This document shows positions 1-37,118 of a stretch of DNA of 39,563 nucleotides, piece by piece. The stretch covers positions 1 through 39,563 of the forward strand of contig NW_002238021.1 in the NCBI RefSeq assembly GCF_000150955.2, read 5' to 3'. Within the stretch, counting starts at the first letter, position 1. Each line of letters begins with the position of its first letter. Made by a program: the position numbers and the translations under genes. The notes beneath the pieces were generated by a model. That model was not told where the DNA came from. It was given only the letters and a program-made list of their open reading frames with translations, and made no database searches. The DNA comes from Phaeodactylum tricornutum CCAP 1055/1 (taxonomy: Eukaryota; Bacillariophyta; Bacillariophyceae; Surirellales; Neidiaceae).

Positions 1-15
1 GGTACCCGGGGATCC
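1..15. other. pUC-type polylinker remnant (vector boundary)
   Basis: The first 15 bases, GGTACCCGGGGATCC, are the KpnI-SmaI-BamHI block of the pUC18/19 multiple cloning site. Homology with the right arm stops at position 17, directly after this block, whereas the right arm continues into the rest of the piggyBac gene. The left edge is therefore most likely a cloning or assembly junction and not a biological breakpoint. Confidence 0.85.
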
Positions 16-767
16 CACTTCAGTTGGTGACCTTATTGGTCAAGACTCTGACAATGAGGTGAGATTTTCGCGCCTCGAATATTTTCTGCTCATGTTTCCG
101 CCGACCCAGCTGACTACTATGTGTTGGCTTACAAATACTATGCTTGCTCAACAAAACAAGCATCCAATCACAGCCGGAGAACTTCTTCGGTTCTTTGGAA
201 TCCTCATACTCACCACAAACTTTGAGTTCAGTAGCCAGGCCCAACTATGGTCCACAACTGCACCCTCCCAACAAAGAGGGTGACAAGGAGGATGAGTATC
301 TACCTCATGGTGCAAAGATTATCAAAGAACTTGTTTGTCCTTGGTGGGGGAATGATTGGATTGTGTGTGCTGATTCTTATTTTGCCTCCGTTGTGACAGC
401 TGTCGAGCTTAAGAGGATTGGCTTGAGATTCATTGGGGTTGTGAAGTCAGCCACGAGAATATATCCAAGACACGTGGTTAGCCTACTGCCAATGTACAGG
501 AATAGGAAAGTCTGCTGGACAGAAAGAAAAGCAGAAGGATTTCTACAGTGCCTTACAGTGGGCGTCACCATAGGATGAAGAAATAAACTCAGTATATGGG
601 TATCTATTTATGTGTCAAATGTACAATGGAGCGACTTTATGAAGCGGTAGGTATCTCAGCCGCCTTCGGCTAGATACATAGATGAGACCATGAAATTGGA
701 TAAATAACCCGGAGAACCACTAGTATTTACGTATTAAAAAAAACTACATTGATAAATTGCAACTTAC

Positions 768-958
768 CAAATGTTAAGTTGTTTTTTACACTCTTGTCGG
801 CCCAACTTGGTGTTGGATGCCTTTGGAGACTTCGATCGGGACAATTTTGACGAAATTTTTTTCCCGGTATCTTCCATTGTACGTTTCCTTGTGACTCTAC
901 AATTTTTATCAGATTCATCATCTGATGAAGCGATGAAAGCTTCATCCAAGTCCGCCAT
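768..958 (-). pseudogene. First exon of lost transposon gene, MADLDEAF... (left copy)
   Basis: A minus-strand ATG in strong context (CACCATGGCG) opens about 63 codons of charged, Ser/Lys-rich protein beginning MADLDEAFIASSDDESDKN. The coding stretch ends at a consensus splice donor, TTTG|GTAAGT, near 767. No matching acceptor or downstream exon is visible before the element's TIR about 210 bp away. I infer that this is exon 1 of an autonomous parent whose remaining exons were deleted. The product is not recognised. The right-arm copy differs by one residue (Gln for Arg near the end). Confidence 0.5.
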
Positions 959-997
959 GGTGACTTTTGTGTTTCAACGATTTGGCGTCGAAATCCA

Positions 998-1017
998 CTC
1001 GTGACTCGAGTCACGAG
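998..1017. promoter_or_regulatory. 20-bp perfect palindrome upstream of the exon (left copy)
   Basis: CTCGTGACTCGAGTCACGAG is a perfect dyad about 40 bp upstream of the MADLDEAF start codon. It contains two TGACTC half-sites of the type bound by AP-1/Gcn4-like bZIP factors. A role as an upstream control site is inference. Confidence 0.4.
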
Positions 1018-1448
1018 CTAGACCAAATTTTTTTGGACTATGATGACTCAATCTCTCCTAGGAGTCAGAAATTAAAAAAAAAACTGACTAGAAAGTTCGA
1101 ATCAATTCCTTTCCCACTGTAGGGACAGCAGAGCCATTTGCGCCTTTCTAGAAAAGTTATAGCCAAATGATCATCCTATGGTGACGCCCACTGTTAGCCA
1201 AGGAGCTGGTTGACAACCAGTACAATAGTGTTGGAAGTCGCAAAGTTGGGAGGGATGAGTTGGACAAGGATAGCCCAACAATCTCCAGACCTGGAGAGCC
1301 GCAATGTGGTTTCTCCGCACATCTAACACCCACCAAAAGAAAAAGAAAGAACAAAGATGGTACTATTAAAAACCAAAGACAGCAGGGAAGGTGTTTGGTG
1401 TGTTCCAAGAAGACCACATATGTTTGCTCTGTATGCAAAGTTGTTGAG

Positions 1449-1903
1449 ACAATTGAAAGCAAAGAACCATGGATTTGCTACACAACGGGAGGGCAGCTAT
1501 GCTCTGCCCAACACCTGACTGCCTTGCATGGTAGTTAAAGACTTTATAGTAGTAATTGGATACAAGTAACTCCTATTATTTATGGTAAAAATGTGTTTCT
1601 TAACCATCATAGCTAAATCCCTATTATCTGTATAGTTTTGTACTGTGTCTACAGGATTTGGCCCATTTAAATAATTTTTTTGTGTCAATTGAAGGCAAAG
1701 AACCATGGATTTGCTACACAACGGGAGGGCAGCCATGCTTTGCCCAACACCTGACTACCTTGCATGGTAGTTAAAGACTTTGTAGTACTAAGTGGATACA
1801 AGTAACTCCTAGTATTAATGGTAAAAATGTGTTTCTTAAGCATCATAGCCAAATCCCTATTATCTGTATAGTTTTGTACCGTGTCTACAGGATTTGGCCC
1901 ATT
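1449..1903. repeat. 236-bp tandem duplication of piggyBac 3' end (left copy)
   Basis: Two direct copies with period 236 bp cover the last ~30 codons of the piggyBac C-terminus (from CAATTGAA, then AAAGAACCATGG) and the following untranslated region up to CAGGATTTGGCCCATTT. The copies start near 1449 and 1685 and differ at many single positions, so the duplication is old compared with the palindrome. Confidence 0.88.
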
Positions 1904-1920
1904 TGTTTCTCTATTTCTGC

Positions 1921-1957
1921 GTCCTCAGCTGAGGACAAATGCCTGCCTCAGCTGAGG
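1921..1957. repeat. Twin CCTCAGCTGAGG palindromes at piggyBac terminus (left copy)
   Basis: GTCCTCAGCTGAGGAC (1921-1936, perfect dyad) and CCTCAGCTGAGG (1946-1957) lie just after a degenerate terminal-repeat-like sequence (TTTCTCTATTTCTGCG). The other ends of the two piggyBac elements carry CCTCAATTGAGG or CTCACCTGAGGA-type dyads in the same place. They may be transposase-binding sites; this is inference. Confidence 0.6.
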
Positions 1958-1964
1958 ACAAGGG

Positions 1965-2042
1965 CCTAAGGGGAGGGGTATCCCAGAGTAGTAACTATGT
2001 ACCTCGCTGTATAAAATTTATCCAAAAACTCTTCCTAAGTAA
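1965..2042 (-). repeat. Subtelomeric box (left copy)
   Basis: This is the inverted copy of the box at 31291-31368. Read on the minus strand it contains TTACTTAGGAAGAGTTTTTGG, then ATAAATTTTATACAG, then TACTACTCTGGGATACCCCTCCCCTTAGG. Close relatives lie next to the real telomere at 39084-39159 and 39277-39312. Confidence 0.8.
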
Positions 2043-2545
2043 TTCCTCTGGGATAGCAGGGTTTCCCTCTGGGATGTCTAAGTAATCCCTCTGGGATAGC
2101 AGGGTTTTGCTCTGAGATATCAGGGTTTCCCTCTGGGATATCAAATAAGGTTAAAGCTACTCCTCTGGGATACCTAACTTGCTGACGTCCGGCATACAGC
2201 CTTCACAGTCAGTTGTTCTTCCGCGAATTGTTTGTGTCGTGTATTTCCTCTGGGATATCATATCCTTCCTCTGGGATATCATGCATTCCCTCTGGGATAT
2301 CAAATAGGGTTAGAGCTACTGCTCTTGGATACCTAACCTGCGGACGTCTGGTATACAGCTTTCACATTCACAGTCAGCTATTCTTCCGCGAATTGCTTGT
2401 GTCGTGTATTCCCTCTGGGATATCATATGCTTCCTCTGGGATATCAAGTATTCCCTCTGGGATATCAAATAGGGTTAGAGCTACTCCTCTGGGATACCTA
2501 ACCTGCCGACGTCCGGCATACAGCTTTCTGTTGTTCTTTGCGAAT
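2043..2545. repeat. CTCTGGGATATC minisatellite with ~160-bp higher-order units (left copy)
   Basis: At least twelve near-copies of the core TCCCTCTGGGATATCA occur at roughly 20-bp spacing. From about 2137 they are organised into 159- and 165-bp units, each ending with GGATACCTAACCTGC, GACGTCCGG and CATACAG (unit marks at 2169, 2328 and 2493). An open frame runs through the array at 2213-2680, but its protein is only the translated repeat, so I do not call a gene. Confidence 0.85.
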
Positions 2546-2589
2546 CGTGTTTGCGTCAGCACGTTGTGTGGCTTTGTCGGCCATACGTA

Positions 2590-2920
2590 TCTTTTAATAT
2601 CCACGTGGTGCTCTGTTCATTGGCACTATGATATTCGGACTATGATTCCATTCATCGTTGTCCTGTCGCTTGACCAATGATTCCGCTGCGGCGGAAACCA
2701 TCTAATGCATGGCCATGGCGAAGTCTAACAAAGCACACAAGAGGACTAGTAGTACAGCTTGCAAAGTGCTTTAGAATAAAATAAAGTGAGCACATCATCC
2801 GATGTGCACAAGACTAGACTAAAGTGATGACCCTAGCATCTCATCCTGAGATGTCCTCTAAGGTCATTTGTCCTCAACCTTACTTCCCCATATCCGGGTC
2901 AGTATGGCTCTATCAAATCA
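2590..2920 (-). repeat. Copia 3' LTR (left copy, 331 bp)
   Basis: This is a direct repeat of 8748-9062. Read on the minus strand it begins TGATTTGATAGAGCC, immediately after a polypurine tract (GAGGGGA, 2922-2928), and ends ATATTAAAAGA. It differs from the 5' LTR by about nine substitutions and holds 16 bp (around CTCTAAGGTCATTTG) that the 5' LTR lacks. No matching 5-bp target duplication is visible next to the element. Confidence 0.9.
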
Positions 2921-3083
2921 GTCCCCTCGAGCTAGAACCGCAATACCTCCGCACACAGCAAAAGCTCTTGCGCGTCTAGCCCGATAAAGCACACTCTTCC
3001 AGAGGCTGGCTTCAGAATCCATTTTGGAAACTTCCACAGGGGTTTGGAATACCTTAGTACACCCGTTGTTGGCCTTTGGTCTT

Positions 3084-6000
3084 TTACCAAAGAACCGTAC
3101 CACTCAGCATTCTCAATCGCGGACCAGGAACACTCTTTGTCAGAAAATCACTCAGATTCGTCTCTGTCGGTTCCTTAGCAATTGAGACAATTCCTGCTGC
3201 CTGCGCCTCGCGCGTTCTATGATAATTTATCGCATTGTGCTTCCGCTTCAATGCTGTCTCCGGCACAGTCGAACTGATAACAACCGACTGGTTGTCACAT
3301 AACACATGGGTTGGTCCGTCCAGTCCAACTCCAAGCATCCTCAACTTATACCGCAATCCTTCAATCATGTCAATTGCCGTCCGCATCGCACAAAACTCTG
3401 ACGAGTACGTTGCTGATTCCACCGTGTTCTGCCGCTTCGAGTACCACAAAATTGGCGCACGGTTCACGTAAATCAATACTCCTGTATGCGACCGGCGAGT
3501 CAACCGACACCCGGCATGATCCGCATCAACAAAACACGTCATTGACACTGATCTACCTCGTTGTTCCGGTACGTTAGGCGGAATCGGCTCCGCTGCACCC
3601 GGGTAAAATTCCGACCAATCTTTCTGAACAAACCGTTCAGCATCAAACGTAGGAACTGAATCGTCAAAAACCAAGGTCGACCTTTTGTGAGCCTTCAGAT
3701 ATGCGAAAATATGAAATAGCTGCTGCAATTGCCCTTCGCGTGGCAGCACCAAAAAGCGAGACATCATTGCAACATCCACCAGAATATCGATCCGGCCCAA
3801 TTCACACATCCACCTTAGGACCCCCACTAGACCCTGATAATACGTGACCCTCCTTGCGTCCAATTCCGGACTCTGGTCTAACTCTGGCCTATAGCCAGCA
3901 CTGAGAGGCGTCGATACCCTTGTAGGAAGGCATTTATCAACTTTTGCCAACTCCGTTTCAACATCAGCAATAGCCGGCTTGATGTAGGTCTCCGAAGACA
4001 TCGCCCAGCGAATCTTCGCTGGATCGTCGGAACCCTCAATGCGCCACTTCTTGATCTCAGCTCCAAGATAAGTTGTTGGCTCCGCAACGGTACCGTTCTT
4101 GAGAGTGTACTTGGACTCTAGGTAGTCCATCGTACTTTTCGGGTCATGGCTAATGGCGAGAATATCGTCAGAATACACGAGAACGTACTCCCAGTACTTG
4201 AAACCATCTGGTTTGGTCGCGGGACGCATCCAAACATCAGGATCAGCCTTACTGCTGACATAATCCGCCTCACGTAGGGTTGCAGCCATATGGTCTCTCC
4301 ATCTAGCTCCACTCGACTTTAATCCATATAATGCGCGAACGATCAACACCGGTCGTCCGGCGTTTGATCCAAACTCCTTTCCAGCGCGCGTCCAGACTTT
4401 CTCTTTTGTTTTGGCGTTCAAATATGCGTTCTGTACGTCAGCCGCAAGAATGTCCAAGTCATTTAACGCCGCCAATAGGAACGCGATTCGCACACTGTCC
4501 CTAGAAACAACACTTGCGAATGTCGTATCTTTAGGTGGATCCGTCGTGTGCCCTCCTGCTACTAGGCGTGCTTTCCTTTGTAGTGAAAAGGCCTTGATAT
4601 CGAAAATCATGTGACATTTGATTTCCTTGTAGCCGACCGGCATCCGGTCATCGTCGCGAAATTCAAACGCAGGCATCACATTTTTCATTTCTTTCGCAAT
4701 TCCATCGCGCCAAAATGTGGTCCCCGTTTCCTTATCGATACGAAGTGCTTCTCCGACAGAATGAGGTAACTCAATGCCGTACTTGTGCGACCGCTTCCAG
4801 TATTTCGACTTGACCTTTTTAATTGCCCTGTCTCTAACACGAAGTGCATGCCGTACCCACCAAGCAAATGCAGGCTCTTCAACAATTTTGTTCGCAACTG
4901 CATACTCGGCTACTTCAATTGGGTTCGATTCTTTCAGATCCTTCAACGGAAGCCAAGTCGTCGATCCGTCTTTCCATGATACAAGAAGTTTCCATCCTTT
5001 TGTTGTCATGCGAGGTTTCCGTTCGCCATTCTTACCAGTGGTAAAGCCATCATCCTTGCGAACCGCGTTACCATCAACTTTATGGTCTGTGATCTCTTTC
5101 ATCAAGAGAAACTCACGACCTTCATGGTCAATTTGCGCGTACATATTCTCTGCAATTATGTTGGCCGCATACACGTTGATTGAACCGTCAGGAAGCTCTA
5201 CCTCATACTCACGTGAGTCGAGGATCGGATTGCTGTGACGGGTCCCCACAGGATTGCCATCAGCATCATGTTTCCGAGCCTTTACAACACCACGCAACAA
5301 TTCACCACCAGTTGGTAGTAAGACTTCAGCAGTCAGATATTCGTCCAGGGATTCCGGCGTATAATCGTCGGCTTCGGCCTTTTCGGCAGCCTCTTCGAGA
5401 GGGTGGAAGTCCTTGTCGGCATACCCTTCAAACAGATCATCAGTCGGACCCGAAATTACATTTGCAAGTTGACCATCAATAACCTGGTTTTCTTCTGCAG
5501 TTTTACTGTTTCCAATTCTATTTTCGATGGCTAGATCAAGTTCAGCAAGGTCAGCCTTAAATTCATCGGTAGCGGCTACGTCTGGAAAGACGCGAGCAAC
5601 AGAGGAACGTGCAATTGGGATGCATAACTTTGGAAGAATCCAAAAAGTCATCGCCTGTCCCACATCTGATGCAACTCCGACCCATCGGCCCAATTTCTTC
5701 TTCATTTCAGGGAAAGCAGAAGTTGGGTCGATGAACCAGACAGGCTCATACCAGTCAAATTGCGCGTACTCAGAAATATCGGGGGTGTCCCCTTCCAAAA
5801 GCTCTGTGGCAACTCGACCGTTTAGCGCAGGAATGTCATGAGCAGTTAATCGACGGATAGCCGACACCCATTCACAACAAAAACACCATAGGCGCCGTGG
5901 TGCACGAGAAACCTGCAGTCGGTGCCGAACAGCCTTCTTAATTTCACGAATTTCTCCTTCAGCTCGATTCTGCCACTGGCTGTGTGGCTCCGTTACATGG

Positions 6001-6737
6001 TGATGTATATGGTGACGCTGCTCAATCTCTCTCCAATGTTTGCCACCTCCCTGCTCCTTAGACCCATCATAAACTAGGTCACTCATTACCCCAACATCAT
6101 GTATCCACTTCATTAGTGCATCAGGAGCTTGCTGCTTGGTCTGCAGAGGGTAAATACGCGAATAGGCCGTGTTGGTTGTGAAAACCTGGGCACACTTGTA
6201 CTGGCGGATGGAAATCACGGACGAAAACATGGTGTCGGTGTAAACCTTGGTCCGAATGGTAGGAAATCGTAAATGCGATTGGCGAGTACGATACCGTCGG
6301 GTCAAGGGATGCATCACCGTTCTCACACCTTTCTGCGTTGTTACTTGCAGAGTCCGCTTGGCCGAATCCAGGCCAATATTCCAACGCTTCGACAAAACCT
6401 CAGCTGTCAACGCTGACCGTCTTTCGCTTGATGTCATACCTGAGACGACACAAGTGAAGTCTTCTGAGTCCGGGTACACATCCGAGTCAGCTCTACCGTC
6501 CAACCCGTCTCCACAGTAATCATCCGACGCAACATTAACACAGGAAATAAGGCGGTCCGCCAGATTTGTCTCGCACAATTCAACCTCTGTCAAGGAACGA
6601 AAAGTCTCAAGTATTCGCTGCGAAGCCGCAACAGTTCGTATACCATATGGGTGTGCTGATAGGATTGCGTGGCCAGTGGAAAGTCCCGTTGTGTCTACCA
6701 ATGATACGCTCCGGTCTCTCTTAGCGGCCTCTTCTTC
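3084..6737 (-). pseudogene. Copia pol: integrase, reverse transcriptase, RNase H (left copy)
   Basis: About 1217 codons run from the TGA at 6738-6740 to the stop at 3084. Numbering from the TTG at 6701, the integrase core is seen as YTDTMF (D156), YDGSKE (D212) and NRAEGE (E248). The Ty1/copia RT follows with ADVQNAYLNA (D755) and VYSDDILA (about 843-848), and then RNase H with CFVDADHAG, SSEFCAM and LCDNQS. The frame is uninterrupted, but nothing visible starts translation here because it is the continuation of gag-protease beyond a TGA. It differs from the right copy at five residues noticed (for example Ala/Thr in LSTGHA, Leu/Ser in PKLCIP, Asp/His in LKDLKE). Confidence 0.92.
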
Positions 6738-7343
6738 TCAACGGGCAAAGTCCGTTGAGCAAGGCTCCCACGGCACATCAGAGGTGAGTATGATATGCTC
6801 ACACTCGTCAAGTTCCTGTTGCGTGGGCTTCCGCGACTCCAAAAACGAGAATATACCGCGCAGCTGCAGCGGAATCCGAAGTTGGGAGTCAGGAACATAC
6901 AAAGAGTGCTTGGAGTTGGCGACGTACTGCCGAGGGGCATCGTCAACATCAATGCCAAAGTCTCGCATCTGGTTGGGGGTCAATAGGGTGTTTTTCAATC
7001 TGTCCCCAAAGAATAGGACCTGATTAATAATAAGAAGCACCACTCTCCCGTCTTCTGGTACTGTGTAAGCTGTGGCAACCGTTCCAATGGGGATATTCTT
7101 CAGTGCAGAATATTCACCGGAGAAAGGTCGCACAGTTACGGACTTCTGCGATTCACCAATCAAGACAGTGTTTGCCCCAGCCACGCATGTGTCTGCATGT
7201 GAATCCAACTCGCAGCGGCCCTCACCAAGATGAGTGCATGCGTTGAGATCACAAATGCTGCGTGTAGAGGTGAGGCTCAATATCACTCGATCTGGTAAAA
7301 TGCATTGCTTAGTCCCCGAAACACTGGCATCGGGTGCCGCGTT
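6738..7343 (-). pseudogene. Copia aspartic protease segment (left copy)
   Basis: About 200 codons carry the retropepsin-like active site in ELDSHADTCVAG. The segment is bounded by in-frame TGA codons at 7344-7346 (after gag) and 6738-6740 (before integrase). It is in the same reading frame as both neighbours, so gag, protease and pol are one frame cut by two TGAs, each of which could derive from CGA (Arg) by a CpG-to-TpG change. Both TGAs are shared with the right arm. Confidence 0.85.
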
Positions 7344-8161
7344 TCACGCATCGTGATGCGTTTTCTGCTTCTTCGTTCCGTTTTCAGAAGGAGAAGCGGT
7401 GTCCGCAGTGAATCCGACCGATTTCTTATACGCACCACGGCCAAATTGCAGGCCAGCCGCATCTGAAGTCGGTTCCATTTCACTGCTGGTATGGACTTCC
7501 TTAGTGTCCACAGGCTCACCCCGTGCTACACTGTCAACACTCCTCTCTGATTCCTCGGGTTTCCCTCCTTGCTTCTTTTTATTACGCAGCGATCGCACTT
7601 TTTCCTGTTGGTCCTTGGAAAAACTTTTCCATTCTCCCGGAGTATAACTGCGAGCCGTGACTGCACCCTTGAAGGGAGTCGGGTTGCTGGCTCCTTTCCC
7701 GGTACCTCCTTTCTTACTCCCACCGGAGGCCCCACTACCTGATGTTTGCACATCATTGACCTGTCGAGGCGTGTTTTCGGATTTGCTCGTGGACGAAGAC
7801 ACAAAAGTCTTCACAAAAAGCTGCGCTTCCGGAAAACTGTTCCGATAAGTGGCATTGGTGCGAATTGTGTCACAAACATAACTCAGACTTGGGTCCTTCA
7901 ATGCCTGGACCAAATAAGTCACAAGCTGCCCATCCGGCAACGCAACTCCGTCATTTTTGACCAATTCCGAGATGGCATACTGAAATTTCTGCAACAGCAT
8001 ATCAATATTCCAGTTACAACTTGGACCATTGTATGTCGTAGTTGACAGGATCTTGATGGCATCATCACGACAAACTGACTCGTTTAATGTTCCTTCCGCC
8101 TGTTCCTTTAATTTCAAAATGGACCAGCTTCAGGAGCGTTGGGAGCATCAGCATCAGCCAT
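7344..8161 (-). pseudogene. Copia gag, start region broken (left copy)
   Basis: An ATG at 8161 in good context begins MADADAPNAPEAGPF and reaches TGA after 15 codons. A different frame then opens at 8117 and runs 257 codons to 7344 with a gag-like helical region followed by a Gly/Ser/Lys-rich tail. The abrupt change of frame right after GPF suggests an internal deletion that removed the N-terminal half of gag. No CCHC zinc knuckle is visible. Identification as gag rests on position upstream of the protease in the same frame. Confidence 0.7.
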
Positions 8162-8747
8162 GGTAAGTGGTGGAAACGGTGGGAATTGAGTAAACGGTAG
8201 GACACGGCATTTCGGAAAATTTCGGATGAATTTTCAGAAAAGTGACAAGTTCGAACAACAAAACTGAAAATTGCGAATGACTGGTGACAAAATTGATAAG
8301 TACACGGGTCATTCCGACCCTGTAATCCAGTCATTGTGACTGAAATTATCATAAATCAAATAGGAACGCATCGGTTAAGATACTTTTGTGATTCGTATAA
8401 TCGTTTTGAAGGAGGGGAAAACTCGTGAGATAGATTAACGAAGTATTGACCACAGGCGACCATCTGAAACCACCTGAATTTTACTTAACTGATTTCAAGA
8501 TCAATTGTCAACTGATCGTACCCGCGGATTTAAAAGCCGCTATTGGGCGCGAACCAAGATCTGTTCTGGTTCTTTTTCTCCCACTGCACGGATCACACTG
8601 GTAGGTGTTACGAAACGCGCGACATTACTGTCAAGTTTTACAGATCCGATGAAAAACTCAGTGCAGTCTAGCGCCTGGTACCAATCCACTCGCAAGAGCT
8701 GTGTGGGTAATTTTGCGCATGTTGTATGCGATGGGTTTCTGATAAAC
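8162..8747 (-). other. Copia 5' leader (left copy)
   Basis: About 586 bp lie between the 5' LTR and the gag ATG. Adjacent to the LTR, read on the minus strand, is GTTTATCAGAAACCC, which shares TATCAGA with the common Copia primer-binding site for initiator tRNA-Met; the match is weak. The 1-bp difference between the palindrome arms lies here, near 8695. No gene is seen. Confidence 0.6.
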
Positions 8748-9062
8748 TCTTTTAATATCCACGTGGTGCTCTGTTCATCGGCACTACAATATTCGGACTA
8801 TGATTCCATTCATCATTGTCCTGTCGCTTGACCGACGATTCCGCTGCGGCGGAAACCATCTAATGCATGGCCATGGCGAAGTCTAACAAAGCACACAAGA
8901 GGACTAGTAGTACAGCTTGCAAAGTGCTTTAGAATAAAATAAAGTGAGCACATCATCCAATGTGCACAAGACTAGACTAATGTGATGACCCTAGCATCTC
9001 ATCCTGAGATGTTCCTCAACCTTACTTCCCCATATCCGGGTCAGTATGGCTCTATCAAATCA
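8748..9062 (-). repeat. Copia 5' LTR (left copy, 315 bp)
   Basis: Direct repeat of the 3' LTR at 2590-2920, with the same termini (TGATTTGATAG... and ...TATTAAAAGA on the minus strand). It carries an internal dyad CATCTCATCCTGAGATG and lacks 16 bp present in the 3' LTR. It lies 615 bp from the 3' end of the ATPase gene. Confidence 0.9.
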
Positions 9063-9677
9063 CTTTGGGCCATCATCCGTCTGTGAGATGGCTTTTTTCC
9101 TCATGCGTACCCTGCGGATTATTATTCTTTACTTGAACAAATCCCATTCGAATGCAGAAAGGCAGAAGACCGAACAGCTGTTGGTACAGTTTCCCTTTAT
9201 ATCTGCCGTTGGATGGAAGAGTGACTGCTATGACGGCACAAGATGAGGCAGGTATTGGAAGTGATATCCATAGTCAATAGGCTCCCAAGTTGACATGATA
9301 AACGCTATCTTGTTCCAATCATTACAGCATGCCGTCAACAAAACTGAGTCCCTTTCCTCCAACGGTATCGACACAGCCTTTGTTTGGTTTCTCAAAGGTG
9401 CTGCTACACTGTGCCTCCATATACGCAGTCAGTAAGTGTCTAACTGTAAAAGAATACACAATATTTCCTTTGCTCATAGTCAGTTCAAAAACATGCTTAT
9501 AAAATCACAGGTCTGGTGATATTTCCTCTTCTGGGGCTGGAAGCCAAGTTCTCTGCGGCATCCAGCATTTGTGAGATATATTTTTACTGACGAGAAAGTG
9601 AGAGGCTTTATCCTTTTAATATATTTTCGGAGGGTTACTCGAAGGTGTGCACGGAATTGTAGAAGTTAACGGAATAT
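9063..9677. other. Intergenic, ATPase 3' flank (left copy)
   Basis: About 615 bp between the Copia 5' LTR and the ATPase stop codon. It is AT-rich near the gene and should contain the ATPase 3' UTR. I see no coding signature, repeat or RNA gene in it. Confidence 0.6.
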
Positions 9678-14198: not shown

Positions 14199-14708
14199 GG
14201 TGGTGATTGTTGTACGTTATTTCTGGATGTTCAAAGGGGTCTCGACGGATGATTCGTTTGTGAGAACACTAGTGTGATGGTTCTGGTTGTGACCTCGGCT
14301 ACTACCAAGAACCACCGTACGACTTGGCTCTCGGAAAGGGATACGTCTACCGTACCTGTCTTGATTGTTGTCCGAGTGGCATACGCTGGCACGCTCCCAT
14401 CGAGGGAAACACGATTTGACGACGTGTATTTTCACAGTCAATGAAAACCTACAAAAACTATATTCCGAATTCCTTTTGCACTAGATTTCAGGATTAGGAC
14501 CGTGTTTCTGCGTCTTGTGGGTTGCCACCGTTGCTTGAGCTGGACCTCTATACTAGCTAGTAGACCTTGTCAAGCCTCTTGTACAAGATAGATTTAGCTC
14601 TCTTACTATTGATTTACACTTTGCACAAAGGACTAGAATCACACACACCATTTATACATATTTTTCAAGCAAAGAGTCATCTTCTGTTGCAGTTGCTATG
14701 GTCTCGCT
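14199..14708. other. ATPase 5' flank (left copy)
   Basis: This 510-bp region lies between the ATPase ATG and the interstitial telomeric repeat and presumably holds its promoter and 5' UTR. No motif is clear enough to call. The short spacing puts this gene within about half a kilobase of what looks like a former chromosome end. Confidence 0.5.
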
Positions 14709-14729
14709 GGGTTAGGGTTAGGGTTAGGG
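14709..14729 (+). repeat. Interstitial telomeric repeat (left copy)
   Basis: There are 3.5 perfect GGGTTA units on the + strand, so the G-rich strand points towards the palindrome centre. On one side is the ATPase upstream region and on the other the 3' end of the Penelope-like element. This is the sequence of the telomere at 39321-39563. Confidence 0.95.
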
Positions 14730-18602: not shown

Positions 18603-18623
18603 CCCTAACCCTAACCCTAACCC
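18603..18623 (-). repeat. Interstitial telomeric repeat (right copy)
   Basis: CCCTAACCCTAACCCTAACCC on the + strand (3.5 units) abuts the 3' end of the Penelope-like element. This is the orientation of a left-hand chromosome end, opposite to the true telomere at 39563, and it mirrors 14709-14729. Confidence 0.95.
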
Positions 18624-19133
18624 AGCGAGACCATAGCAACTGCAACAGAAGATGACTCTTTGCTTGAAAAATATGTATAAATGGTGTGTGTGATTCTAGT
18701 CCTTTGTGCAAAGTGTAAATCAATAGTAAGAGAGCTAAATCTATCTTGTACGAGAGGCTTGACAAGGTCTACTAGCTAGTATAGAGGTCCAGCTCAAGCA
18801 ACGGTGGCAACCCACAAGACGCAGAAACACGGTCCTAATCCTGAAATCTAGTGCAAAAGGAATTCGGAATATAGTTTTTGTAGGTTTTCATTGACTGTGA
18901 AAATACACGTCGTCAAATCGTGTTTCCCTCGATGGGAGCGTGCCAGCGTATGCCACTCGGACAACAATCAAGACAGGTACGGTAGACGTATCCCTTTCCG
19001 AGAGCCAAGTCGTACGGTGGTTCTTGGTAGTAGCCGAGGTCACAACCAGAACCATCACACTAGTGTTCTCACAAACGAATCATCCGTCGAGACCCCTTTG
19101 AACATCCAGAAATAACGTACAACAATCACCACC
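18624..19133. other. ATPase 5' flank (right copy)
   Basis: 510 bp between the interstitial telomeric repeat and the ATPase ATG, expected to contain the promoter. No recognisable core element could be called. Confidence 0.5.
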
Positions 19134-23654: not shown

Positions 23655-24269
23655 ATATTCCGTTAACTTCTACAATTCCGTGCACACCTTCGAGTAACCC
23701 TCCGAAAATATATTAAAAGGATAAAGCCTCTCACTTTGTCGTCAGTAAAAATATATCTCACAAATGCTGGATGCCGCAGAGAACTTGGCTTCCAGCCCCA
23801 GAAGAGGAAATATCACCAGACCTGTGATTTTATAAGCATGTTTTTGAACTGACTATGAGCAAAGGAAATATTGTGTATTCTTTTACAGTTAGACACTTAC
23901 TGACTGCGTATATGGAGGCACAGTGTAGCAGCACCTTTGAGAAACCAAACAAAGGCTGTGTCAATACCGTTGGAGGAAAGGGACTCAGTTTTGTTGACGG
24001 CATGCTGTAATGATTGGAACAAGATAGCGTTTATCATGTCAACTTGGGAGCCTATTGACTATGGATATCACTTCCAATACCTGCCTCATCTTGTGCCGTC
24101 ATAGCAGTCACTCTTCCATCCAACGGCAGATATAAAGGGAAACTGTACCAACAGCTGTTCGGTCTTCTGCCTTTCTGCATTCGAATGGGATTTGTTCAAG
24201 TAAAGAATAATAATCCGCAGGGTACGCATGAGGAAAAAAGCCATCTCACAGACGGATGATGGCCCAAAG
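23655..24269. other. Intergenic, ATPase 3' flank (right copy)
   Basis: 615 bp between the ATPase stop and the Copia 5' LTR. It presumably contains the ATPase 3' UTR. I see no gene, repeat or RNA gene. Confidence 0.6.
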
Positions 24270-24584
24270 TGATTTGATAGAGCCATACTGACCCGGATAT
24301 GGGGAAGTAAGGTTGAGGAACATCTCAGGATGAGATGCTAGGGTCATCACATTAGTCTAGTCTTGTGCACATTGGATGATGTGCTCACTTTATTTTATTC
24401 TAAAGCACTTTGCAAGCTGTACTACTAGTCCTCTTGTGTGCTTTGTTAGACTTCGCCATGGCCATGCATTAGATGGTTTCCGCCGCAGCGGAATCGTCGG
24501 TCAAGCGACAGGACAATGATGAATGGAATCATAGTCCGAATATTGTAGTGCCGATGAACAGAGCACCACGTGGATATTAAAAGA
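24270..24584 (+). repeat. Copia 5' LTR (right copy)
   Basis: Begins TGATTTGATAGAGCC and ends GGATATTAAAAGA, directly repeated at 30413-30743. It lacks 16 bp present in the 3' LTR. Confidence 0.92.
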
Positions 24585-25171
24585 GTTTATCAGAAACCCA
24601 TCGCATACAACATGCGCAAAATTACCCACACAGCTCTGTGCGAGTGGATTGGTACCAGGCGCTAGACTGCACTGAGTTTTTCATCGGATCTGTAAAACTT
24701 GACAGTAATGTCGCGCGTTTCGTAACACCTACCAGTGTGATCCGTGCAGTGGGAGAAAAAGAACCAGAACAGATCTTGGTTCGCGCCCAATAGCGGCTTT
24801 TAAATCCGCGGGTACGATCAGTTGACAATTGATCTTGAAATCAGTTAAGTAAAATTCAGGTGGTTTCAGATGGTCGCCTGTGGTCAATACTTCGTTAATC
24901 TATCTCACGAGTTTTCCCCTCCTTCAAAACGATTATACGAATCACAAAAGTATCTTAACCGATGCGTTCCTATTTGATTTATGATAATTTCAGTCACAAT
25001 GACTGGATTACAGGGTCGGAATGACCCGTGTACTTATCAATTTTGTCACCAGTCATTCGCAATTTTCAGTTTTGTTGTTCGAACTTGTCACTTTTCTGAA
25101 AATTCATCCGAAATTTTCCGAAATGCCGTGTCCTACCGTTTACTCAATTCCCACCGTTTCCACCACTTACC
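24585..25171 (+). other. Copia 5' leader (right copy)
   Basis: 587 bp between the LTR and the gag ATG, starting GTTTATCAGAAACCC (weak primer-binding-site resemblance: TATCAGA). It contains the single extra base relative to the left arm (GCTCTGTGCG here, against GCTCTTGCG). Confidence 0.6.
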
Positions 25172-25989
25172 ATGGCTGATGCTGATGCTCCCAACGCTCC
25201 TGAAGCTGGTCCATTTTGAAATTAAAGGAACAGGCGGAAGGAACATTAAACGAGTCAGTTTGTCGTGATGATGCCATCAAGATCCTGTCAACTACGACAT
25301 ACAATGGTCCAAGTTGTAACTGGAATATTGATATGCTGTTGCAGAAATTTCAGTATGCCATCTCGGAATTGGTCAAAAATGACGGAGTTGCGTTGCCGGA
25401 TGGGCAGCTTGTGACTTATTTGGTCCAGGCATTGAAGGACCCAAGTCTGAGTTATGTTTGTGACACAATTCGCACCAATGCCACTTATCGGAACAGTTTT
25501 CCGGAAGCGCAGCTTTTTGTGAAGACTTTTGTGTCTTCGTCCACGAGCAAATCCGAAAACACGCCTCGACAGGTCAATGATGTGCAAACATCAGGTAGTG
25601 GGGCCTCCGGTGGGAGTAAGAAAGGAGGTACCGGGAAAGGAGCCAGCAACCCGACTCCCTTCAAGGGTGCAGTCACGGCTCGCAGTTATACTCCGGGAGA
25701 ATGGAAAAGTTTTTCCAAGGACCAACAGGAAAAAGTGCGATCGCTGCGTAATAAAAAGAAGCAAGGAGGGAAACCCGAGGAATCAGAGAGGAGTGTTGAC
25801 AGTGTAGCACGGGGTGAGCCTGTGGACACTAAGGAAGTCCATACCAGCAGTGAAATGGAACCGACTTCAGATGCGGCTGGCCTGCAATTTGGCCGTGGTG
25901 CGTATAAGAAATCGGTCGGATTCACTGCGGACACCGCTTCTCCTTCTGAAAACGGAACGAAGAAGCAGAAAACGCATCACGATGCGTGA
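25172..25989 (+). pseudogene. Copia gag, start region broken (right copy)
   Basis: ATG 25172 gives MADADAPNAPEAGPF and then TGA at 25217-25219. The gag-like body is in the next frame from about 25216 to 25986 (contains LNESVCRDDAIKIL and a Gly/Ser-rich tail GSGASGGSKKGGTGKG) and ends at TGA 25987-25989. The frame change directly after GPF suggests that a deletion joined the N-terminal tip to the C-terminal half. Recognition as gag is by position and composition, not by a zinc knuckle. Confidence 0.7.
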
Positions 25990-26595
25990 AACGCGGCACC
26001 CGATGCCAGTGTTTCGGGGACTAAGCAATGCATTTTACCAGATCGAGTGATATTGAGCCTCACCTCTACACGCAGCATTTGTGATCTCAACGCATGCACT
26101 CATCTTGGTGAGGGCCGCTGCGAGTTGGATTCACATGCAGACACATGCGTGGCTGGGGCAAACACTGTCTTGATTGGTGAATCGCAGAAGTCCGTAACTG
26201 TGCGACCTTTCTCCGGTGAATATTCTGCACTGAAGAATATCCCCATTGGAACGGTTGCCACAGCTTACACAGTACCAGAAGACGGGAGAGTGGTGCTTCT
26301 TATTATTAATCAGGTCCTATTCTTTGGGGACAGATTGAAAAACACCCTATTGACCCCCAACCAGATGCGAGACTTTGGCATTGATGTTGACGATGCCCCT
26401 CGGCAGTACGTCGCCAACTCCAAGCACTCTTTGTATGTTCCTGACTCCCAACTTCGGATTCCGCTGCAGCTGCGCGGTATATTCTCGTTTTTGGAGTCGC
26501 GGAAGCCCACGCAACAGGAACTTGACGAGTGTGAGCATATCATACTCACCTCTGATGTGCCGTGGGAGCCTTGCTCAACGGACTTTGCCCGTTGA
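25990..26595 (+). pseudogene. Copia aspartic protease segment (right copy)
   Basis: This segment is in frame with gag upstream and pol downstream, separated from them only by TGA 25987-25989 and TGA 26593-26595. The active-site segment is CELDSHADTCVAG, typical of diatom Copia proteases (DSHADT in place of DTGA/DSGA). The protease processes the Gag-Pol polyprotein. As written it would need readthrough of the first TGA to be made. Confidence 0.85.
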
Positions 26596-29500
26596 GAAGA
26601 AGAGGCCGCTAAGAGAGACCGGAGCGTATCATTGGTAGACACAACGGGACTTTCCACTGGCCACACAATCCTATCAGCACACCCATATGGTATACGAACT
26701 GTTGCGGCTTCGCAGCGAATACTTGAGACTTTTCGTTCCTTGACAGAGGTTGAATTGTGCGAGACAAATCTGGCGGACCGCCTTATTTCCTGTGTTAATG
26801 TTGCGTCGGATGATTACTGTGGAGACGGGTTGGACGGTAGAGCTGACTCGGATGTGTACCCGGACTCAGAAGACTTCACTTGTGTCGTCTCAGGTATGAC
26901 ATCAAGCGAAAGACGGTCAGCGTTGACAGCTGAGGTTTTGTCGAAGCGTTGGAATATTGGCCTGGATTCGGCCAAGCGGACTCTGCAAGTAACAACGCAG
27001 AAAGGTGTGAGAACGGTGATGCATCCCTTGACCCGACGGTATCGTACTCGCCAATCGCATTTACGATTTCCTACCATTCGGACCAAGGTTTACACCGACA
27101 CCATGTTTTCGTCCGTGATTTCCATCCGCCAGTACAAGTGTGCCCAGGTTTTCACAACCAACACGGCCTATTCGCGTATTTACCCTCTGCAGACCAAGCA
27201 GCAAGCTCCTGATGCACTAATGAAGTGGATACATGATGTTGGGGTAATGAGTGACCTAGTTTATGATGGGTCTAAGGAGCAGGGAGGTGGCAAACATTGG
27301 AGAGAGATTGAGCAGCGTCACCATATACATCACCATGTAACGGAGCCACACAGCCAGTGGCAGAATCGAGCTGAAGGAGAAATTCGTGAAATTAAGAAGG
27401 CTGTTCGGCACCGACTGCAGGTTTCTCGTGCACCACGGCGCCTATGGTGTTTTTGTTGTGAATGGGTGTCGGCTATCCGTCGATTAACTGCTCATGACAT
27501 TCCTGCGCTAAACGGTCGAGTTGCCACAGAGCTTTTGGAAGGGGACACCCCCGATATTTCTGAGTACGCGCAATTTGACTGGTATGAGCCTGTCTGGTTC
27601 ATCGACCCAACTTCTGCTTTCCCTGAAATGAAGAAGAAATTGGGCCGATGGGTCGGAGTTGCATCAGATGTGGGACAGGCGATGACTTTTTGGATTCTTC
27701 CAAAGTCATGCATCCCAATTGCACGTTCCTCTGTTGCTCGCGTCTTTCCAGACGTAGCCGCTACCGATGAATTTAAGGCTGACCTTGCTGAACTTGATCT
27801 AGCCATCGAAAATAGAATTGGAAACAGTAAAACTGCAGAAGAAAACCAGGTTATTGATGGTCAACTTGCAAATGTAATTTCGGGTCCGACTGATGATCTG
27901 TTTGAAGGGTATGCCGACAAGGACTTCCACCCTCTCGAAGAGGCTGCCGAAAAGGCCGAAGCCGACGATTATACGCCGGAATCCCTGGACGAATATCTGA
28001 CTGCTGAAGTCTTACTACCAACTGGTGGTGAATTGTTGCGTGGTGTTGTAAAGGCTCGGAAACATGATGCTGATGGCAATCCTGTGGGGACCCGTCACAG
28101 CAATCCGATCCTCGACACACGTGAGTATGAGGTAGAGCTTCCTGACGGTTCAATCAACGTGTATGCGGCCAACATAATTGCAGAGAATATGTACGCGCAA
28201 ATTGACCATGAAGGTCGTGAGTTTCTCTTGATGAAAGAGATCACAGACCATAAAGTTGATGGTAACGCGGTTCGCAAGGATGATGGCTTTACCACTGGTA
28301 AGAATGGCGAACGGAAACCTCGCATGACAACAAAAGGATGGAAACTTCTTGTATCATGGAAAGACGGATCGACGACTTGGCTTCCGTTGAAGCATCTGAA
28401 AGAATCGAACCCAATTGAAGTAGCCGAGTATGCAGTTGCGAACAAAATTGTTGAAGAGCCTGCATTTGCTTGGTGGGTACGGCATGCACTTCGTGTTAGA
28501 GACAGGGCAATTAAAAAGGTCAAGTCGAAATACTGGAAGCGGTCGCACAAGTACGGCATTGAGTTACCTCATTCTGTCGGAGAAGCACTTCGTATCGATA
28601 AGGAAACGGGGACCACATTTTGGCGCGATGGAATTGCGAAAGAAATGAAAAATGTGATGCCTGCGTTTGAATTTCGCGACGATGACCGGATGCCGGTCGG
28701 CTACAAGGAAATCAAATGTCACATGATTTTCGATATCAAGGCCTTTTCACTACAAAGGAAAGCACGCCTAGTAGCAGGAGGGCACACGACGGATCCACCT
28801 AAAGATACGACATTCGCAAGTGTTGTTTCTAGGGACAGTGTGCGAATCGCGTTCCTATTGGCGGCGTTAAATGACTTGGACATTCTTGCGGCTGACGTAC
28901 AGAACGCATATTTGAACGCCAAAACAAAAGAGAAAGTCTGGACGCGCGCTGGAAAGGAGTTTGGATCAAACGCCGGACGACCGGTGTTGATCGTTCGCGC
29001 ATTATATGGATTAAAGTCGAGTGGAGCTAGATGGAGAGACCATATGGCTGCAACCCTACGTGAGGCGGATTATGTCAGCAGTAAGGCTGATCCTGATGTT
29101 TGGATGCGTCCCGCGACCAAACCAGATGGTTTCAAGTACTGGGAGTACGTTCTCGTGTATTCTGACGATATTCTCGCCATTAGCCATGACCCGAAAAGTA
29201 CGATGGACTACCTAGAGTCCAAGTACACTCTCAAGAACGGTACCGTTGCGGAGCCAACAACTTATCTTGGAGCTGAGATCAAGAAGTGGCGCATTGAGGG
29301 TTCCGACGATCCAGCGAAGATTCGCTGGGCGATGTCTTCGGAGACCTACATCAAGTCGGCTATTGCTGATGTTGAAACGGAGTTGGCAAAAGTTGATAAA
29401 TGCCTTCCTACAAGGGTATCGACGCCTCTCAGTGCTGGCTATAGGCCAGAGTTAGACCAGAGTCCGGAATTGGACGCAAGGAGGGTCACGTATTATCAGG

Positions 29501-30249
29501 GTCTAGTGGGGGTCCTAAGGTGGATGTGTGAATTGGGCCGGATCGATATTCTGGTGGATGTTGCAATGATGTCTCGCTTTTTGGTGCTGCCACGCGAAGG
29601 GCAATTGCAGCAGCTATTTCATATTTTCGCATATCTGAAGGCTCACAAAAGGTCGACCTTGGTTTTTGACGATTCAGTTCCTACGTTTGATGCTGAACGG
29701 TTTGTTCAGAAAGATTGGTCGGAATTTTACCCGGGTGCAGCGGAGCCGATTCCGCCTAACGTACCGGAACAACGAGGTAGATCAGTGTCAATGACGTGTT
29801 TTGTTGATGCGGATCATGCCGGGTGTCGGTTGACTCGCCGGTCGCATACAGGAGTATTGATTTACGTGAACCGTGCGCCAATTTTGTGGTACTCGAAGCG
29901 GCAGAACACGGTGGAATCAGCAACGTACTCGTCAGAGTTTTGTGCGATGCGGACGGCAATTGACATGATTGAAGGATTGCGGTATAAGTTGAGGATGCTT
30001 GGAGTTGGACTGGACGGACCAACCCATGTGTTATGTGACAACCAGTCGGTTGTTATCAGTTCGACTGTGCCGGAGACAGCATTGAAGCGGAAGCACAATG
30101 CGATAAATTATCATAGAACGCGCGAGGCGCAGGCAGCAGGAATTGTCTCAATTGCTAAGGAACCGACAGAGACGAATCTGAGTGATTTTCTGACAAAGAG
30201 TGTTCCTGGTCCGCGATTGAGAATGCTGAGTGGTACGGTTCTTTGGTAA
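26596..30249 (+). pseudogene. Copia pol: integrase, reverse transcriptase, RNase H (right copy)
   Basis: The frame runs open for about 1217 codons after TGA 26593-26595. Counted from 26632, the integrase catalytic triad is D156 (YTDTMF), D212 (YDGSKE) and E248 (NRAEGE). The RT has ADVQNAYLNA (D755), RALYGLKSSGARWR and VYSDDILA (D845, D846). RNase H has CFVDADHAG, SSEFCAMRT and LCDNQSVV. No HHCC integrase finger is obvious. All polymerase and integrase catalytic residues survive, so decay is limited to the TGAs and the gag start. The C-terminal part (KRKHNAINYHRTREA, NLSDFLTK) is standard for Copia. Confidence 0.93.
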
Positions 30250-30404
30250 AAGACCAAAGGCCAACAACGGGTGTACTAAGGTATTCCAAACCCCTGTGGA
30301 AGTTTCCAAAATGGATTCTGAAGCCAGCCTCTGGAAGAGTGTGCTTTATCGGGCTAGACGCGCAAGAGCTTTTGCTGTGTGCGGAGGTATTGCGGTTCTA
30401 GCTC

Positions 30405-30411
30405 GAGGGGA
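30405..30411 (+). promoter_or_regulatory. Copia polypurine tract (right copy)
   Basis: GAGGGGA sits one base before the 3' LTR start (TGATTTG at 30413). This is the expected site and composition for plus-strand priming. The 155 bp between the pol stop and here contain no gene. Confidence 0.7.
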
Positions 30412-30412
30412 C

Positions 30413-30743
30413 TGATTTGATAGAGCCATACTGACCCGGATATGGGGAAGTAAGGTTGAGGACAAATGACCTTAGAGGACATCTCAGGATGAGATGCTAG
30501 GGTCATCACTTTAGTCTAGTCTTGTGCACATCGGATGATGTGCTCACTTTATTTTATTCTAAAGCACTTTGCAAGCTGTACTACTAGTCCTCTTGTGTGC
30601 TTTGTTAGACTTCGCCATGGCCATGCATTAGATGGTTTCCGCCGCAGCGGAATCATTGGTCAAGCGACAGGACAACGATGAATGGAATCATAGTCCGAAT
30701 ATCATAGTGCCAATGAACAGAGCACCACGTGGATATTAAAAGA
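30413..30743 (+). repeat. Copia 3' LTR (right copy)
   Basis: 331 bp, direct repeat of 24270-24584. It carries a dyad CATCTCAGGATGAGATG-like segment and the extra 16 bp around ACAAATGACCTTAGAG. Outside it the minisatellite region begins. Confidence 0.92.
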
Positions 30744-30787
30744 TACGTATGGCCGACAAAGCCACACAACGTGCTGACGCAAACACG

Positions 30788-31290
30788 ATTCGCAAAGAAC
30801 AACAGAAAGCTGTATGCCGGACGTCGGCAGGTTAGGTATCCCAGAGGAGTAGCTCTAACCCTATTTGATATCCCAGAGGGAATACTTGATATCCCAGAGG
30901 AAGCATATGATATCCCAGAGGGAATACACGACACAAGCAATTCGCGGAAGAATAGCTGACTGTGAATGTGAAAGCTGTATACCAGACGTCCGCAGGTTAG
31001 GTATCCAAGAGCAGTAGCTCTAACCCTATTTGATATCCCAGAGGGAATGCATGATATCCCAGAGGAAGGATATGATATCCCAGAGGAAATACACGACACA
31101 AACAATTCGCGGAAGAACAACTGACTGTGAAGGCTGTATGCCGGACGTCAGCAAGTTAGGTATCCCAGAGGAGTAGCTTTAACCTTATTTGATATCCCAG
31201 AGGGAAACCCTGATATCTCAGAGCAAAACCCTGCTATCCCAGAGGGATTACTTAGACATCCCAGAGGGAAACCCTGCTATCCCAGAGGAA
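30788..31290. repeat. CTCTGGGATATC minisatellite (right copy)
   Basis: On this strand the core reads TGATATCCCAGAGGGAA and is repeated at least twelve times, with ~160-bp higher-order units marked by GGTTAGGTATCC. It is the mirror of 2043-2545. The adjacent box (31291-31368) links it to the terminal subtelomere. Confidence 0.85.
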
Positions 31291-31368
31291 TTACTTAGGA
31301 AGAGTTTTTGGATAAATTTTATACAGCGAGGTACATAGTTACTACTCTGGGATACCCCTCCCCTTAGG
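31291..31368 (+). repeat. Subtelomeric box (right copy)
   Basis: TTACTTAGGAAGAGTTTTTGG, then ATAAATTTTATACAG, then TACTACTCTGGGATAC and CCCTCCCCTTAGG. The same ordered blocks occur at 39084-39159, and the first part occurs at 39277-39312, right beside the telomere. The box is in the same orientation as those copies. Confidence 0.85.
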
Positions 31369-31375
31369 CCCTTGT

Positions 31376-31412
31376 CCTCAGCTGAGGCAGGCATTTGTCC
31401 TCAGCTGAGGAC
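31376..31412. repeat. Twin CCTCAGCTGAGG palindromes (right copy)
   Basis: CCTCAGCTGAGG at 31376-31387 and GTCCTCAGCTGAGGAC at 31397-31412 mirror 1921-1957. They mark the inner end of piggyBac-like element 1. Confidence 0.6.
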
Positions 31413-31429
31413 GCAGAAATAGAGAAACA

Positions 31430-31884
31430 AATGGGCCAAATCCTGTAGACACGGTACAAAACTATACAGATAATAGGGATTTGGCTATGATGCTTAAGAA
31501 ACACATTTTTACCATTAATACTAGGAGTTACTTGTATCCACTTAGTACTACAAAGTCTTTAACTACCATGCAAGGTAGTCAGGTGTTGGGCAAAGCATGG
31601 CTGCCCTCCCGTTGTGTAGCAAATCCATGGTTCTTTGCCTTCAATTGACACAAAAAAATTATTTAAATGGGCCAAATCCTGTAGACACAGTACAAAACTA
31701 TACAGATAATAGGGATTTAGCTATGATGGTTAAGAAACACATTTTTACCATAAATAATAGGAGTTACTTGTATCCAATTACTACTATAAAGTCTTTAACT
31801 ACCATGCAAGGCAGTCAGGTGTTGGGCAGAGCATAGCTGCCCTCCCGTTGTGTAGCAAATCCATGGTTCTTTGCTTTCAATTGT
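31430..31884. repeat. 236-bp tandem duplication of piggyBac 3' end (right copy)
   Basis: Mirror of 1449-1903. Two direct copies contain the last transposase codons and the 3' flank (GGGCCAAATCCTGTAGACAC...). Several substitutions separate the copies, while the arms are almost identical. Confidence 0.88.
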
Positions 31885-32315
31885 CTCAACAACTTTGCAT
31901 ACAGAGCAAACATATGTGGTCTTCTTGGAACACACCAAACACCTTCCCTGCTGTCTTTGGTTTTTAATAGTACCATCTTTGTTCTTTCTTTTTCTTTTGG
32001 TGGGTGTTAGATGTGCGGAGAAACCACATTGCGGCTCTCCAGGTCTGGAGATTGTTGGGCTATCCTTGTCCAACTCATCCCTCCCAACTTTGCGACTTCC
32101 AACACTATTGTACTGGTTGTCAACCAGCTCCTTGGCTAACAGTGGGCGTCACCATAGGATGATCATTTGGCTATAACTTTTCTAGAAAGGCGCAAATGGC
32201 TCTGCTGTCCCTACAGTGGGAAAGGAATTGATTCGAACTTTCTAGTCAGTTTTTTTTTTAATTTCTGACTCCTAGGAGAGATTGAGTTATCATAGTCCAA
32301 AAAAATTTGGTCTAG

Positions 32316-32335
32316 CTCGTGACTCGAGTCACGAG
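32316..32335. promoter_or_regulatory. 20-bp perfect palindrome upstream of the exon (right copy)
   Basis: CTCGTGACTCGAGTCACGAG lies 39 bp before ATG 32375. It is a candidate bZIP-type site. Confidence 0.4.
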
Positions 32336-32374
32336 TGGATTTCGACGCCAAATCGTTGAAACACAAAAGTCACC

Positions 32375-32565
32375 ATGGCGGACTTGGATGAAGCTTTCAT
32401 CGCTTCATCAGATGATGAATCTGATAAAAATTGTAGAGTCACAAGGAAACGTACAATGGAAGATACCGGGAAAAAAATTTCGTCAAAATTGTCCCGATCG
32501 AAGTCTCCAAAGGCATCCAACACCAAGTTGGGCCAACAAGAGTGTAAAAAACAACTTAACATTTG
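32375..32565 (+). pseudogene. First exon of lost transposon gene, MADLDEAF... (right copy)
   Basis: The ATG in CACCATGGCG opens about 63 codons (MADLDEAFIASSDDESDKN..., Lys/Ser-rich) to the donor TTTG|GTAAGT at 32566. Read through, the frame stops at 32569. No acceptor or second exon fits in the remaining ~208 bp. The product is not recognised; I infer an accessory or transposase gene of the autonomous parent. Confidence 0.5.
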
Positions 32566-33928
32566 GTAAGTTGCAATTTATCAATGTAGTTTTTTTTAAT
32601 ACGTAAATACTAGTGGTTCTCCGGGTTATTTATCCAATTTCATGGTCTCATCTAGGTATCTAGCCGAAGGCGGCTGAGATACCTACCGCTTCATAAAGTC
32701 GCTCCATTGTACATTTGACACATAAATAGATACCCATATACTGAGTTTATTTCTTCATCCTATGGTGACGCCCACTGTAAGGCACTGTAGAAATCCTTCT
32801 GCTTTTCTTTCTGTCCAGCAGACTTTCCTATTCCTGTACATTGGCAGTAGGCTAACCATGTGTCTTGGATATATTCTCGTTGCTGACTTCACAACCCCAA
32901 TGAATCTCAAGCCAATCCTCTTAAGCTCGACAGCTGTCACAACGGAGGCAAAATAAGAATCAGCACACACAATCCAATCATTCCCCCACCAAGGACAAAC
33001 AAGTTCTTTGATAATCTTTGTACCATGAGGTAGATACTCATCCTCCTTGTCACCCTCTTTGTTGGGAGGGTGCAGTTGTGGACCATAGTTGGGCCTGGCT
33101 ACTGAACTCAAAGTTTGTGGTGAGTATGAGGATTCCAAAGAACCGAAGAAGTTCTCCGGCTGTGATTGGATGCTTGTTTTGTTGAGCAAGCATAGTATTT
33201 GTAAGCCAACACATAGTAGTCAGCTGGGTCGGCGGAAACATGAGCAGAAAATATTCGAGGCGCGAAAATCTCACCTCATTGTCAGAGTCTTGACCAATAA
33301 GGTCACCAACTGAAGTACGGATATAGAAGTGCCCAATATAGACATGGCCATTCACATCCAGCCGGGTTTTTCTTTCATTCACATACCACTCTGTTTGGTG
33401 CACTGTGGCTACCAGAATTTCGGACTCTGTGTCAGCCAAGGTATTGTCATCAACCGGGGTCTCGACAATTTCGGCTACCGGGCTATCGGGCTCTGTGTCA
33501 ACCAAGGTATTGGGCTCTATGTCAGCCGGGGTTTCAACGATTTCGGCTACCGGGGCTTCGACACTCTCTTCCATCAAGTTTCCGGCTTCCATGTCTGCCT
33601 CTGCTGCCTCTGCGGCTATTTCCTCAATTAAGGACATTCCTTCATCTTCTGGCAGTACAAATGCCTTTACACTCCGAATGTTCAGTGTTTTTTCCTTGAA
33701 CAAACTCTCTCCAAAATCATAAACTGTTGTAATCAAAGTAGAGGTACGCCCGGTTGAAACGGATACAGGGGTGGTCGTGACGTCTAGAACCGTTCCAACA
33801 AGCCGCTTGGAGTGCTTGTTGACGCCATATCTCTGTGCGCACTTGCTCAGATGCACAACATGACAAGCCTTTGCCGTCACCTTCCCTCCAATTCGAAGTC
33901 TAGGATCCCTCACTGGCATGTCTGACAA

Positions 33929-37098: not shown

Positions 37099-37118
37099 GC
37101 ACAGTAGAATAGACACTA

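Follow-up and report, generated by a model that had tools for sequence, protein, structure and literature searches.

Results

We analysed a stretch of 39,563 nucleotides (hereafter the window) from the diatom Phaeodactylum tricornutum CCAP 1055/1, which we take to be the reference strain. The window is contig NW_002238021.1, or C44 among the 88 contigs (27,450,724 bases) of the assembly that was searched, and consists for the most part of a giant palindrome, in which two inverted arms of 15.8 kb flank a short spacer occupied by a reverse transcriptase (RT) frame, with a telomere array at the right end (Table 1). From the outside towards the centre, each arm carries piggyBac-like pieces, minisatellites, a Copia-type retrotransposon, a P1B ATPase, a short telomeric tract and a partial RT. 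Self-BLAST of the window paired positions 17-15816 with 33316-17516 at 99.88% identity over 15,801 columns, and the arm-to-arm alignment disclosed 18 substitutions plus one 1-bp indel, that is, 19 differences. A first-pass annotation of the window had proposed two near-identical 15.8-kb arms near a telomere, with at least 17 substitutions and a 1-bp indel between them, a telomere 6 kb away and a left limit masked by vector-like sequence. All of this is borne out by the coordinates and the alignment, by the 6.0 kb that separate the end of the right-arm match from the array, and by the first 18 bases, which resemble a cloning-vector junction. It had also described a unique spacer of 1.7 kb; the size is correct (1,699 bp) but the spacer is not unique, as it holds most of an RT frame that extends with its 3' part into the right arm and has a truncated inverted copy at the end of the left arm. 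An origin by chance or from a simple repeat was rejected for 15.8 kb inverted at such identity.

The arms may be longer than visible. Since the cloned DNA stops at base 19 and a right-arm open frame (33050-33943) extends beyond 33316, neither outer limit is demonstrated as biological, and the idea that the arm limits are biological ends was discarded because they coincide with the vector junction. Matches from the assembly searches reported below are lower bounds (the list for a whole-arm query came without the window's own row, whereas a shorter query listed the window).

Table 1. Features of the window, with position, strand and basis of the call.
Position	Strand	Feature	Basis
1..18	.	Probable fosmid vector polylinker plus CAC half-site	18-mer matches in the assembly
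19..15816	+	Left arm as cloned	Self-BLAST and arm alignment
2590..9062	-	Copia-type long terminal repeat retrotransposon, left arm (repeats 2590-2920 and 8748-9062)	Self-BLAST, RVT_2
9678..14216	-	P1B heavy-metal ATPase frame, 1512 codons, left arm	Pfam E1-E2_ATPase, Hydrolase, HMA
14709..14729	+	Mirrored telomeric tract, left arm
15338..15865	-	Second, inverted and truncated copy of the RT 3' part at the left junction, last 49 bases in the spacer	Protein search, query residues 580-756, 91%
15727..17997	+	Open frame of 756 codons over both junctions, read as a Penelope-like RT	Open frames; RVT_1 E 0.17, residues 328-496
15817..17515	+	Spacer, 1,699 bp, most of the RT frame	Alignment, open frames
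17516..33316	-	Right arm, as far as the left arm was cloned	Self-BLAST and arm alignment
18603..18623	-	Telomeric tract past the RT 3' region, right arm, G-rich strand toward the centre
19116..23654	+	Second ATPase frame, right arm, one residue different	TIGR01525 and TIGR01512 above cut-off
24270..30743	+	Mirrored Copia-type element, right arm	Self-BLAST, open frames
33317..39314	+	Flank from the matched right arm to the telomere, many transposon pieces
39315..39563	+	TTAGGG telomere array, 41.5 units, inside a dispersed repeat

The RT frame begins in the left arm (residues 1-30), passes through the spacer and runs about 160 codons into the right arm, where the codon score was weakly in its favour. 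On a reading of its motifs, we take it to belong to a Penelope-like element (PLE) without endonuclease, so that the spacer and the inner arm ends presumably carry an RT of this type. In Pfam the frame matched RVT_1 and nothing else up to E 10, and thus no GIY-YIG endonuclease, though a diverged domain could escape this search. There was no family at E <=0.01 in Pfam or NCBIfam and none in PHROGs up to E 1; phage and viral-contig searches returned no relatives of the RT, and PDB gave two chance-level matches. The RT of this frame and the truncated inverted copy that ends the left arm are two 5'-truncated copies that meet at 15816/15817 in head-to-head orientation, and the junction carries no telomeric repeat.

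Telomeric sequence lies past the 3' region of the RT in both arms. The tract of the right arm comprises three and a half CCCTAA units and is located about 600 bp beyond the RT stop. The final 132 bp of the element have copies of 97.7% identity in C62 and C16, which there also end in telomeric repeats, and hence such repeats are present at or near the 3' end of the element both in the window (from 18603 on) and in the C62/C16 lineage. A 134-bp module of the 3' region occurs at 8 other places in the assembly, and all eight have a contig end 3-17 kb away, toward which the 5' side points. The 3' ends in C62 and C16 are likewise oriented toward a nearby contig end. Two of these contigs show a further arrangement: at C16:754902-755250 and C62:8129-8477 there are two successive truncated 3' ends, each running into telomeric repeats, the second being shorter.

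At the right end of the window, the dispersed repeat stops at 39316 and the telomere starts. When the matched places of this repeat were compared at four fetched loci (two places in C31, four in C16, one in C4 and one in C11), the repeat was found to continue into other DNA in 8 of 8. To judge from the sequence, the outer end would fit a healed break. The inverted arms and the asymmetric spacer beside a telomere are those that a terminal inverted duplication requires.

We then considered the divergence of the arms. Passages of PMC6604790, in which the P. tricornutum culture is equated with CCAP 1055/1, give a heterozygosity of 0.9% and a rate of 4.77e-10 substitutions per site per generation. 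Between two alleles, about 142 differences would be expected over an arm, versus the 18 substitutions observed (0.12%), and an origin from two average alleles was rejected, even though a local loss of heterozygosity could still yield few differences. Twelve of the 18 substitutions are transitions. Assuming no gene conversion, the age of the arms would be about 1.2 million generations. Comparison with relatives polarised 15 of the 19 differences, of which the left arm acquired 11 and the right arm 4; when only the 14 polarised substitutions are counted, the figures are 10 and 4 (p 0.18). The outer 1.2 kb contains six of the 19 differences (312-1045 versus 33021-32288; p 0.002 for a stretch picked after looking), and the best 750-bp stretch gave p 0.019 for clustering. 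The mirroring of one sequence was rejected in view of the 19 differences, the 15 polarised among them and the changes private to each arm. These data agree with the earlier claim of independently sequenced copies to the extent that they prove two distinct sequences; they do not prove that both reside in one genomic molecule. From their sequences, the arms look like copies that were identical at birth and have been diverging since.

Concerning the left end, we take the first 18 bases to be a fosmid vector polylinker followed by an Eco72I half-site. In fosmid cloning, end-repaired inserts can be placed into the blunt Eco72I site (passages of PMC5872301), and the window probably starts at a fosmid vector/insert junction. 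The 18-mer has just two matches in the assembly, C44:1 and C30:7985, with different sequences following it, and a search with the 15-mer polylinker lacking CAC added no further place, both copies being followed by CAC. The expected other half of the polylinker had one match, C9:873234, in seemingly ordinary sequence. Because the remaining 39,545 bases are the size of a fosmid insert, the contig most likely represents a single fosmid that terminates in a natural telomere on its other side. Removal of the left arm would leave 23,747 bases, which is short for fosmid packaging; this argument supports the clone length and does not oppose a chimera. The P. tricornutum reference is described, in passages of PMC6604790 and PMC8147415, as a haploid genome of 27.45 Mb and as 27.4 Mbp in 33 chromosome scaffolds (<=2.5 Mbp) together with a "bottom drawer" of 55 unlinked ones, and C44 would be among the unplaced ones. 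The vector tag and CAC inside C30 (7985-8002), a contig of 317 kb and chromosome size, suggest a fosmid end or a misjoin remaining in that part of the assembly.

As to the genes, each arm bears one intact ATPase frame. The protein passes the cut-offs of TIGR01525 and of the cadmium subfamily TIGR01512 and stays below that of ZntA. Its 5' region (12500-14700) had only two matches in the assembly, both in the window, one per arm. The nearest relative, located at C16:483-487 kb, has an open frame of 1422 codons and shares 79% identity over residues 207-1433. The C-terminal region consists of Cys-rich tandem repeats of 60/120 bp (9927-10290 and 23112-23405), and a related region exists in the C16 relative. 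The pol frames of the Copia-type elements are five residues apart between the arms. The transposase pieces of the outer arm are piggyBac-like (PF13843), and a second piggyBac-like transposase in two overlapping frames (34549-36836) lies between the matched arm and the telomere. A 165-bp minisatellite with a unit of the TCCCTCTGGGATAT type (2082-2528 and 30804-31251) is common to many other places in the assembly. A tRNA scan yielded nothing of use.

Discussion

A literature search found no paper describing this palindrome, supplements being outside its scope, and the main text of PMC9266582 contains no word starting with "palindrom". According to passages of PMC3846280, PLEs deficient in endonuclease use exposed termini or breaks for priming, after which the truncated 5' end receives telomeric repeats. 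Because of this rule, both RT copies would aim a former chromosome end at the centre of the palindrome.

The explanation that we favour, tentatively and at somewhat less than an even chance, is that the centre of the palindrome represents a former PLE-capped chromosome end that became joined to its sister, and that an outer break was later healed by a telomere. A chromosome end would first have been capped by a PLE lacking an endonuclease and primed on the telomeric overhang, with its 3' end on telomeric repeats and its truncated 5' end outward. This end would then have lost its cap, and two copies of it, most simply sister chromatids, would have been cut back to unequal points inside the element and joined head to head at 15816/15817. 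The result would be an inverted duplication, in which the 1.7-kb spacer is the surplus element sequence on one side of the joint. Later, the duplicated arm would have broken further out and a telomere would have been set at 39315, inside the repeat. On this order of events, which we infer from the layout, the centromere would be past the cloned-off left end, and the doubling of the metal pump would be a by-product that, speculatively, might be useful.

Both parts of this explanation have counterparts in known systems. Duplications by sister fusion or breakage-fusion-bridge share with the window the inverted arms, the short asymmetric spacer and, on one side, a telomere set in other DNA; they differ in that the joint of the window lies inside a retroelement beside telomeric tracts, and neither a dicentric stage nor the side of the centromere is observed in it. 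Telomere-associated, endonuclease-deficient PLEs were reportedly described by Gladyshev and Arkhipova in 2007. Like the elements of this kind presented in passages of PMC3846280, the window has an RT without an endonuclease match, 5'-truncated copies and telomeric repeats past the 3' end, and relatives of its 3' end lie close to contig ends. Unlike them, its truncated copies face each other in the middle of a palindrome, two RT relatives are interior, and membership is assigned on a reading of motifs.

Several observations weigh against a PLE-capped end joined to its sister. No profile library calls the RT a PLE, the RVT_1 match is weak, and structure prediction was useless (mean predicted local distance difference test score, pLDDT, 38). 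Both other RT relatives found by protein search contain stops and are far from contig ends (C24, 421 kb of 512 kb; C2, 440 kb of 1,498 kb), and hence the RT family is not strictly terminal. As C62 and C16 share a stretch of about 2 kb at 97% identity, their 3' ends count as one lineage. The places of the 134-bp module are not independent either, since at least two pairs are near-duplicates, the second being the one at the right of C11 and that in C8, which are 99% alike; these loci share about 500 bp mutually and just 134 bp with the window, and the module may be a separate subtelomeric repeat. Moreover, only the right end of C11 is seen as a telomere, the left end of C62 being not telomeric. 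The comparison of the repeat at the outer end covers its dispersed copies, not the other telomeres of the genome. Lastly, yeast palindromes arising after telomere loss are independent of ligase 4 and, in passages of PMC4981268, are judged inconsistent with sister fusion.

The main rival is fold-back synthesis, in which a single strand of the eroded end loops back, with either a short inverted repeat or an inverted partial copy of the PLE as the seed, the arm is copied and the spacer is the loop. This process has been proposed for those yeast palindromes (passages of PMC4981268), which resemble the window in being tied to an uncapped end and in having a spacer between the arms; their arms reach up to 500 kb, and the joint of the window is without a demonstrable short inverted repeat. 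PLEs with flanking inverted partial copies are known (passages of PMC3846280), and the final layout would be identical. However, with a centromere to the left, fold-back predicts that the spacer continues the left arm, whereas the RT frame actually continues into the right one. A later inversion of the spacer through recombination between the arms would be needed, which is possible, and we consider fold-back unlikely overall, though deserving of serious weight. We also gave up the argument that breakage-fusion-bridge is ruled out by a spacer continuous with the right arm, since unequal joining of sisters gives this layout and arm recombination can invert the spacer. Our preference for sister joining over fold-back is a cautious one.

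An artefact, slightly less probable still, would mean that two fragments of a locus present once in the genome were ligated head to head within a single fosmid or joined in finishing. The contig has a vector junction, ends there and was probably unplaced, and the same tag inside C30 indicates that clone ends wrongly entered the assembly. On the other hand, the substitutions fall far short of the roughly 142 that a divergence of 0.9% between alleles would give (although few might remain after a local loss of heterozygosity) and are too many for one allele read twice at what we take to be finished quality. Two thirds of them being transitions also speaks against an artefact, as does the fact that both sides of the joint lie in the same retroelement beside telomeric tracts.

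Large palindromes are also represented by the inverted-duplication amplicons of Leishmania, which may double a metal-resistance gene, and by the palindromic rDNA of Tetrahymena; the window shares their form and is known from its sequence, not as an extrachromosomal, amplified or selected molecule. It is very unlikely that the window makes up most of a free linear mini-chromosome, palindromic and about 45.8 kb long, derived from a retroelement-capped end, with a telomere at each end and a doubled metal pump. It has no AT-rich centromere-like stretch (the lowest GC over 500 bp is 37%, and the centromere-like threshold is near 33%). Cloning would have removed the left end, the RT frame runs on into the arm on the telomere side, and a published telomere graph used reads >50 kb and would miss a shorter molecule (passages of PMC9266582), but the bands reported from pulsed-field gel electrophoresis start at about 480 kb (passages of PMC8147415).

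Terminal retroelements are thought to help cap chromosome ends. If the joining of a PLE-capped end to its sister is true, the window would be a sequenced case of a retroelement-capped end that failed, was joined to its own copy and was later healed by a telomere, with the retroelement left at the centre of a giant palindrome. It would thus link retroelement capping, palindrome formation and gene dosage in a tractable diatom.

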